Positions 6,824 through 9,800 of a DNA stretch of 64,000 nucleotides are shown piece after piece. Every line of letters begins with the position of its first letter. The first letter of the stretch is position 1. The DNA lies in assembly GCA_921293015.1 (NCBI GenBank), contig OV121082.1:45218971-45282970 (forward strand), written 5' to 3'. The position numbers and the translations under genes were made by a program. Under the pieces are notes generated by a model. It was not told where the DNA came from. It saw nothing but the letters and a program-made list of their open reading frames with translations, and did not search any database. The DNA comes from Phorcus lineatus. Lineage: Eukaryota; Mollusca; Gastropoda; Trochida; Trochidae.

Positions 6824-9800
6824 GTGAAATATGTTTAACTTTCTATTATGTCATATAATCAAACAACTACGTGTGAATGGTTTATAGATACTGTGCATGA
6901 AGTAGTCATACATCTATGTATTAGAAAGGCACCTGTTACCGCTACATACATAATAAGTCCCCAATCAGTTCTTGATTCTCTTGAATATACACACCCATCC
7001 CCAATGAGACAAAGACAGCCTATCGCCCTCAAAACTGTATTACATTTCAAAATATTGGATATTTTCCTCAAATCAACACCTTCTTTAAAAAGTTTTATAT
7101 GACTATGAGTCCCTGTAGCTTATTACATTGATTATGGTATGTGTTTTATTAAACATATTTATTTGTCCACATCATTGAACACTGTTTCCTATCCCTTTGA
7201 TCAATTGTTGATCAACTGTGTGTTGTTGCAGGTATACGTTACAGTCCTCTTGTGTGTGTGGATGAAGTGAAAGCTCTTGCTGCCTTGATGACCTACAAGT
7301 GTGCAGTTGTTGATGTCCCCTTTGGTGGAGCTAAAGCTGGAGTGAAGATCGACCCAACGCAGTACTCAGAAGGAGAACTTGAGCGAATCACCCGTAGACT
7401 GGCAGTTGAACTTGCCAAGAAAGGATTCATTGGTAAACTTATGCTCTTCGCTGAAATTGAAAATAAAGAACATGACCGAGTGTCTTTTATAAATCTGCAT
7501 ATGAAGTGAAACTGAAATGCAGCTGTCTGAATTGAAAGTATGCTTGCCAACTATCTGTACCAATACAAAGTTGCTGGGTAAAAGCTGAAAACAAATTAAA
7601 ACAATTGATCAAATCAGTCTTTTTAAAATTCAAGAAGCCTCTAAAAGAGTTTACAGCTTTGAGGCATGGTATCACAAATACAAATTACAATCTTACTATT
7701 AGTAATGTTACTTGGAGTTGTATATATAATGAATTTTTCATTACATATTTTAACAAACTTGAGGGTTGTTAGGACAGTCAAATTATTCAAAGACTAAAAA
7801 TAGATTTAGCTATGAGAATTTTTAATGTGTAGTGTGAAACTTTGAATAATGTACGTACCAGGTCCAGGTATTGATGTACCGGCCCCTGACATGGGAACAG
7901 GGGAGAGAGAAATGGCCTGGATTGCCGACGGCTATGCCAATACTCTGGGTATGTACTGCACGAGTTGATTTGTTTGCTAATATTGCTGTCTTTGATAATC
8001 ATAAGGTCCTGGCATTGATGTCCCTGCCCCTGACATGGGTACAGGGGAGCGCGAGATGAGTTGGATTTGTGACACATTTTCCCAGACTTTTGGTAAGATG
8101 CTTTGAATATCCGTCTCTTGCTGATTCCAAGCCAAAGGGATGTGGCCGTCTAGTTTTATCTTATTTTTTTGTTTTGGTTCCTGTCTCAAAGCTATTTTTG
8201 TTGGTAATTATGATTTCTTTTGAGTCTGTTTAAATCTGTATTACAGTAAAAAGTTCAATTGGATGTAGTGTATTTTAAAGTAGAAAAATAACTTTTCATT
8301 TGTAAAATTGTTGTGCAGTTTTCAGTGTCTCGAAAAGTATTTTAATCTGTCCCATTTGGCTTGAAATAAGGAAGTGACAATCCTCTGAATGTGCAGGCAT
8401 GCTTTAATCCCTACTATCAAAGGGCAGTGGTAAAATGTTATCTGTTAGGTTTCTGCTAATATTAAACGATCTATTAATGTCAAAGTGTCATTCTGGATAC
8501 TAATTATCTTATTTTATATTGATTCTGGATATAATACTTGATTAATTTTTGCCCAAAAAAAAAAAATAAAACTGATTTGTTACAAGTGTTACAATTTATC
8601 TGCAATGTGTTTGAAAAAAAAAGAACAGAATTGAATATTTTGAGGGTATTCCCGTTTTTGGGAGAATCTTTTATTTGACTTTAGCTTTCTTTTATTATTT
8701 GGCTTCACAAACTTATATACCTTGTATCTCAAGATATCTCCAATATCAACAAAGAAAAAACAAAATATTTTCAATTGTTAGGACAGAGTGAATAGGATTT
8801 TGTAATTATTAATCTTGTGTTTGTGAGGTATTATGAATGTTAAGATGATAAATCTAATTCTGCTTATCTTTGACTTTCTTCAAATTTTCATCTACATTGA
8901 AGTTACTTACTTTTATGTTCTCTCTCATTCAATCTGACACTCTTAGCTAATCCTATCTCTCATCTGACATTAAACGAAAAATAATTAGTGGACAGTTTGA
9001 CTATAAACATAAGGTGTTCACATAATTTTCTTACATTGACCTAAAATCTATTACTTAATTGTGTATTGTTTTTAAGTGTCTCCATGTGGAATTGACAATT
9101 GTAACTGTAACTCTCTTATTTTATTTTCTTCTTTTCATCCCAATCCATTGTATAATAGTGATTGTTTATGTTTAGAAGGGTTTGGCATATTTTTACTAGT
9201 TGTAAATATGGGACAATATAAGTGTATGAAATAAGTTTCAAATGTATGTAGACTGAAAGTGTTATTTGTAAATTTTCATTGCAAAATTGAAGAAAAACTT
9301 TTAAAATTGACCAGCCTTACCAAATATAACCGGGCCCTAGACTGGCTGAAGGACCTTATTCATACACTGTTATATCCTTGTTTATTTTGAAAAGGTGAAA
9401 ATGTTGCTACCATTAGCAAAATTCTATTTTTATGTACTACTATGATTCTGTATGAAATAACACTCAAGGTCAAAGCTTTAAGCAATAAATAACTTTTTCT
9501 CACAACATTGTTAAATCTCAAATAGCACCGATACATAGCCAGTAAATAAAGTATCCTTTCAGATGATAGATTTACTTCACTCTAAAGTTTTCCATTATTT
9601 TAGTTCTAGCCCATTTGCATAAATCGCCCTTTTACTAAGGTGATTATAAGTCAATGTTACCACAATAGCTACAAAGGGACTTTGTGCAAATTGGTGCAGA
9701 TGATTATACTTGATTCAAGAGATTAAGCATTGTTGGTTGTCAATTCGTCGTTTTATTTACGAAGCACATGTATTGAATTTTCGACTGAGTTTTGACAGTT

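Follow-up and report, generated by a model that had tools for sequence, protein, structure and literature searches.

A tandem pair of third exons, probably mutually exclusive, in the glutamate dehydrogenase gene of Phorcus lineatus

The GDH gene and its two third exons

A complete animal-type glutamate dehydrogenase (GDH) gene occupies positions 6436–19736 on the plus strand of the window, i.e. the whole 64,000-nucleotide stretch of Phorcus lineatus DNA analysed here. The gene model comprises 13 exons, counting 3a and 3b separately, with introns of the GT-AG type (Table 1). The identification is based on full-length homology to solved animal chains, with residues 35–542 matching solved GDH chains (E 1.2e-264) and the best matches including glutamate dehydrogenase 1 or 2, mitochondrial. 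The predicted protein has 542 aa with either 3a or 3b, 571 aa with both exons and 513 aa with none, the reading frame being kept in every case.

Table 1 Exons, intervening intron and best branch-point candidate of the GDH gene, in window positions
Feature	Position	Strand	Remarks
GDH exon 1	6436..6823	+	Start codon at 6436; mitochondrial leader by homology; homology to solved chains from residue 35; gene model
GDH exon 2	7232..7432	+	Ends in phase 1, ...KKGFIG; gene model
Exon 3a	7862..7948	+	87 nt, phase 1-1; gene model and copy comparison
Intron 3a/3b	7949..8005	+	57 nt; in-frame stops upon retention
CTAAT, best branch-point candidate	7977..7981	+	Candidate A at +32 (counted from the 3a donor), 25 nt upstream of the 3b acceptor
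Exon 3b	8006..8092	+	87 nt, phase 1-1; gene model and copy comparison
GDH exon 4	10991..11079	+	Gene model
GDH exon 5	11467..11565	+	Gene model
GDH exon 6	11849..11989	+	Gene model
GDH exon 7	12806..12943	+	Gene model
GDH exon 8	13186..13266	+	Gene model
GDH exon 9	13629..13752	+	Gene model
GDH exon 10	19044..19141	+	Region alternative between Oratosquilla X1 and X3; no second copy here
GDH exon 11	19386..19448	+	Gene model
GDH exon 12, with stop codon	19617..19736	+	Gene model

Intron 9, which is 5.3 kb long, contains a retroelement on the minus strand (window 14000–18790, limits set by eye). One 558-aa open frame in it combines a reverse transcriptase domain (E 1.3e-11) with a match to phage integrase (E 1.5e-5) that, at 25.2 bits, stays below the curated cut-off of 27.1; from this combination of domains we take the element to be DIRS-like. 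On the plus strand, open frames at window positions 491–1956 resemble, by eye, a LINE-type polymerase end with a cysteine/histidine tail, and a 371-aa frame there was without a Pfam match. No structured RNA in the window matched Rfam at the gathering threshold.

An earlier note on this DNA, made from the sequence alone, had described two tandem 87-nt exons of phase 1-1, and their coordinates, lengths and phases proved exact, with AG before and GT after both. The two are adjacent homologues of equal length and phase that leave a full frame when either is used alone, as tandem-duplicated exons do, and 64 of their 87 nucleotides are identical. The claim that they encode the same 18 residues, including the catalytic PAPD aspartate, and then diverge also held, with 7 of the 12 tail residues differing between 3a and 3b. 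In bovine numbering, aligned so that the catalytic Asp is residue 168 and Lys residue 126, the differing residues are 177, 180, 182, 183, 184, 185 and 187.

Change in the shared half had been said to be synonymous only, and all 8 nucleotide differences, which fall in 7 of the 18 codons, are indeed silent; when 8 changes were placed at random 200,000 times, the 18-residue peptide was never preserved. Nei–Gojobori estimates were dS 0.97 and dN 0.025 for codons 1–18, and dS 1.03 and dN 0.63 for codons 19–29, where 15 base differences are associated with 7 replacements. This dN/dS check agrees with the protein-level selection proposed earlier for both copies, with silent-only change over 18 codons at a dS of about 1. 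Similarity ends at the exon borders: the exon score was reached by none of 500 mononucleotide shuffles, and the introns flanking the pair are alike at chance level, with 84 and 197 of 500 such shuffles reaching the observed score. Gene conversion of the first half is disfavoured because silent divergence is even along the two exons. Since change in the first half is silent only and intron similarity is at chance, the pair reads as an old duplication. Selection on the protein appears to have maintained both copies, acting strictly on the first half and either loosely or towards divergence on the second. A recent segmental duplication as the origin of 3a and 3b was rejected on the same chance-level intron similarity. 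Antisense to both copies runs a 120-aa stop-free frame (window 7787–8149, minus strand), probably a by-product of codon choice.

The duplication is restricted to exon 3 within the window. In a six-frame scan of its full length, the second exon-3 copy scored 134 and the best unrelated stretch 31, and the same kind of scan found no second copy of exons 4, 5, 8, 10 and 11 (next best at most 25) or of exons 1, 2, 6, 7, 9 and 12 (next best at most 32). When the 958-Mb, 74-contig genome was searched with exon 3b plus its flanks, five matches were obtained, namely 3a, 3b, exon 4 and two with E >3, and there was no third exon-3 copy among the best candidates scored. A PF00208 search of the same genome, again with the best candidates scored, gave one GDH place. 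A gene duplicate or retrocopy as the source of the second exon was rejected on the basis of this single place in the own-genome searches, and no GDH relative was found in a collection of viral contigs.

Counterparts in molluscs and crustaceans

Outside the segment, the nearest of 188 fetched proteins of at least 380 aa is Haliotis asinina GDH isoform X2 (P0004), with 91.6% identity computed without residues 196–225. At this identity the gene looks like that of a vetigastropod, though probably not of a close relative of Haliotis. Its tail, AWIADSFANTLG, is 2 changes from 3a and 6 from 3b, whereas the tail of Patella, Lottia and P0005, SWIADTFSQTLG, is 2 changes from 3b and 5 from 3a. Across 200 segments, 133 are nearer to 3a and 56 nearer to 3b, with 11 ties, but distance alone proves little because the common animal form, SWIADTYANTLG, is itself 2 changes from 3a, as far as the 12-residue tail of P0004. 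More specific are Ala177, present in 4 of 200 segments from proteins of at least 300 aa, and a residue other than Thr at 182, present in one (P0004 itself). P0004 has both features of 3a, which suggests a modest tie between this Haliotis protein and exon 3a; the tie is weakened because P0004 has Phe183 as in 3b and because the two features are commoner when short genomic fragments are counted (35 and 15 of 295 segments, respectively). The label X2 suggests at least one further annotated Haliotis isoform. No 3a/3b pair was seen in a second mollusc in a protein database clustered at 90% identity, a level that would hide pairs, and Patella and Lottia each have one segment type there; a search of short proteins gave no recognisable second mollusc pair either. 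Both exon-3 borders are present in other lineages, since some genomic reading frames start at GPG (e.g. P0145 and P0151) and others end after T-x-G (P0204 and P0230).

Further counterparts come from malacostracan crustaceans. Scylla paramamosain isoforms X3 (P0296) and X4 (P0104) are identical save for TYANTIG versus TFSKTVG in the segment, and Oratosquilla isoforms X1 (P0090) and X2 (P0282) are identical save for TYAKTIG versus TYANTVG. As in 3a and 3b, the alternative stretch runs from GPG to T-x-G and the differences lie in its last part. In contrast, the malacostracan pairs show 1–4 changes and different replacements, compared with 7 changes between 3a and 3b, and they are known from proteins, not from exon borders; by eye, mollusc and crustacean replacements fall in the same stretch but do not sort into common 3a and 3b types. 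Segment alternation extends beyond this animal and beyond molluscs, and the crustacean GDH isoforms are already in public protein annotation. Two or more representatives were found for nine species in two lists, each holding the best 120 of about 8000, with species assigned by reading truncated protein names and further species possibly missed beyond those 120. The segment differs in two of the nine, both malacostracans, and is the same in the other seven (Anopheles maculipalpis, Hipposideros, Podarcis muralis, Anabas, Amphiprion ocellaris, Sander and Dicentrarchus).

The segment is present once in 192 of 197 fetched proteins of at least 300 aa and twice in four, the remaining protein (P0023) falling outside the pattern and holding one copy by eye. 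In two of the four, the Armadillidium (P0002) and Homarus (P0003) gene models, both segment copies stand in a row, 29 residues apart and joined as ..TIG|GPG.., as expected from annotation that strings mutually exclusive exons together. The Tigriopus californicus protein P0001 (943 aa) contains two GDH units in one predicted protein and likely represents two tandem genes that annotation fused, and Teladorsagia circumcincta P0241 (385 aa) carries a stretch of about 80 residues twice, including the segment and identical over it, probably through an annotation or assembly error.

A further alternative region was observed in Oratosquilla oratoria, in which X3 (P0088) and X1 (P0090) differ after NYHLL (ESVQESLERRFG... 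versus DSVAESLTKHFN...), and the Homarus model P0003 joins both kinds of this region. From these proteins, the region is likely to be a second exon pair in the GDH of these crustaceans. Oratosquilla GDH thus has an alternative exon-10 region as well, unlike the P. lineatus window, for which such an alternative was rejected after the six-frame scans gave none.

The intervening intron and the choice between 3a and 3b

The earlier note had pointed to a 57-nt intron between the copies with a branch-like site about 31 nt from the 3a donor, and this is borne out by the motif CTAAT with its candidate branch A at +32. Adenines in a yUnAy context occur in the intron at +20, +32 and +47 only, which places all candidates closer to the 3a donor than the steric limit of about 50 nt, a limit measured in vertebrates (PMC7969005). 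The intron is also the shortest of those whose length was measured or estimated in this genome, the other 36 being at least 92 nt long, in a small sample drawn mainly from one gene family (myosin). None of the 11 remaining GDH introns is shorter than 168 nt, and 25 introns of a myosin cluster range from 92 to 387 nt as estimated from Myosin_head matches. Exact borders were tried for 9 of these 25; they were clear in 8 (92, 99, 108, 121, 128, 154, 158 and 162 nt, none more than 12 nt off its estimate) and ambiguous in one. The cluster itself (G000:C2:56250000-57080000) contains roughly twelve myosin-head genes distributed over both strands; their exon layout is repeated, and several introns are about 100 nt long.

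We consider the best explanation to be that exon 3 was duplicated in tandem long ago and that 3a and 3b are used one at a time as mutually exclusive exons (probability about 0.8). Each mRNA would contain either 3a or 3b between exons 2 and 4, which would yield two 542-residue GDH subunits that have the PAPD aspartate in common and differ at seven positions behind it. Joining of 3a to 3b would probably be blocked by the short intron through the position of its branch-point candidates. Frameshift followed by decay cannot police the choice because 3a and 3b are symmetric, with lengths that are multiples of three, and this makes a physical block more plausible; steric exclusion is likely to be the enforcer. 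The mutually exclusive use proposed in the earlier note stands as the best explanation, and it is strengthened by the crustacean isoform pairs because these differ only within the segment. For P. lineatus itself, we infer that both exons are probably used, that the enforcement is likely to be steric and that the isoforms may differ in kinetics or regulation.

Exclusivity might instead be imposed on alternative exons by splicing regulators or RNA structure, with the 57-nt intron being spliceable, a possible reading to which we give clearly lower odds. Introns of about this length are spliced in some invertebrates, e.g. insects and nematodes, but nothing so short was encountered among the other introns sampled in this genome. 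Of all acceptors in the gene, that of 3a is poorest in pyrimidines (44% in −20..−5), and the 3b acceptor is AAG, though that of exon 5 is likewise AAG. However, 3a does not stand out in leave-one-out local splice-site matrices, which were built from about ten sites: its acceptor scores 5.7, above those of exons 4, 5, 7, 8 and 12. The 3b acceptor, at −2.0, still exceeds those of exons 4 and 8, and the 3b donor ranks second in the gene. Splice-site strength gives no clear answer for 3a and 3b, and the matrix does not mark 3a as weak. Inverted repeats spanning the exon pair exist, e.g. 7655–7666 with 8182–8193 (12 nt), but the 57-nt intron contains no arm of any of the 24 pairs listed. RNA pairing that sets 3a against 3b was rejected, with nothing convincing in this listing from one genome.

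It is improbable that only one exon is in use and the other is a relic still intact in appearance. Each copy departs from the usual animal residues at several positions, and rare residues are present in both (G182 in 0, C180 in 5 and F187 in 6 of 295 segments), which could also mean relaxed constraint. Such a relic is hard to reconcile with a dS of about 1 at which only silent changes accumulated over 18 codons, with two copies free of stops and indels and flanked by intact splice sites, or with the crustacean annotation that has both versions as isoforms. Joint inclusion of both exons, which would produce a GDH that repeats 29 residues, is less probable still: the frame stays open with both, and such a repeat is what the gene models of Armadillidium and Homarus show, but the catalytic PAPD loop would then be repeated inside a conserved core, the segment is single in nearly all of the fetched proteins counted above, and the Scylla and Oratosquilla isoforms hold one segment copy each. 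The spacing of the tandem copies, 144 nt, might recall an assembly artefact or a recent local duplication, an origin to which the nucleotide divergence of 25%, flanking introns no more alike than shuffles and the coding-like divergence pattern leave hardly any room.

Related exon pairs and the swapped residues

The closest mechanistic parallel to the proposed exclusive use of 3a and 3b is found in vertebrate OGDH, also a mitochondrial enzyme of 2-oxoglutarate metabolism with a tandem exon pair, 4a/4b (PMC7969005). Its branch points lie 25–41 nt from the donor of the intervening intron, below the steric threshold of about 50 nt, and each OGDH mRNA contains one of the two exons (PMC7969005). The candidate adenines between 3a and 3b are likewise below that threshold, and one exon per mRNA is predicted for GDH. 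The swapped OGDH segment serves calcium sensing in a different enzyme, and the mechanism is experimental there (PMC7969005), whereas it is proposed from sequence for GDH. Next to vertebrate OGDH 4a/4b, GDH would add a second 2-oxoglutarate enzyme to those regulated through exon pairs around a short intron. Among human mutually exclusive exon clusters, 57 (9%) have a donor-to-branch-point distance <50 nt, a mechanism class like that proposed here, and neither GLUD1 nor glutamate dehydrogenase occurs in the main text of that study (PMC5740500). Two GDH cDNAs of Litopenaeus vannamei (Li 2009, as cited in PMC3355100) resemble the 3a/3b proposal in that one invertebrate has two GDH transcripts, GDH A being a truncated gene according to PMC3355100. 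The earlier note was not aware of a description of such an exon pair in GDH, and we likewise recognised no describing paper among the full-text matches listed, a set that leaves subscription papers mostly outside and that was complemented by term searches within PMC3355100, PMC12650449, PMC7969005, PMC5740500, PMC3228551, PMC9741552 and PMC9013439.

At bovine position 183, 3a has Tyr and 3b has Phe. Mutagenesis and photolabelling are reported to place the corresponding human residue, Tyr187, at the ADP site. A strong ADP reading of the swap is disfavoured because Phe183 is present in 64 of 295 segments, many of them from fish, and an altered ADP response or ADP activation through the exchange of 3a and 3b is speculation. 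In the structure model of P0004, a helix at 209–221 extends over most of the swapped part, with residues 196–215 and 217–248 having pLDDT values <50. We regard it as improbable that the 3a/3b switch is old in protostomes, was inherited by molluscs and malacostracans alike and, through exchange of the segment behind the catalytic aspartate, sets allosteric control, be it of nucleotide binding or of activation by ADP.

GDH connects amino-acid metabolism with energy metabolism; its tuning in mammals is allosteric and, in apes, also involves a second gene. It is an unexpected enzyme for a mutually exclusive exon pair, in which one gene would supply two catalytic-domain variants through splicing. 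Because the swapped residues include positions 177, 180 and 182, which vary little among animals, the pair may be viewed as a natural mutagenesis experiment on GDH control.
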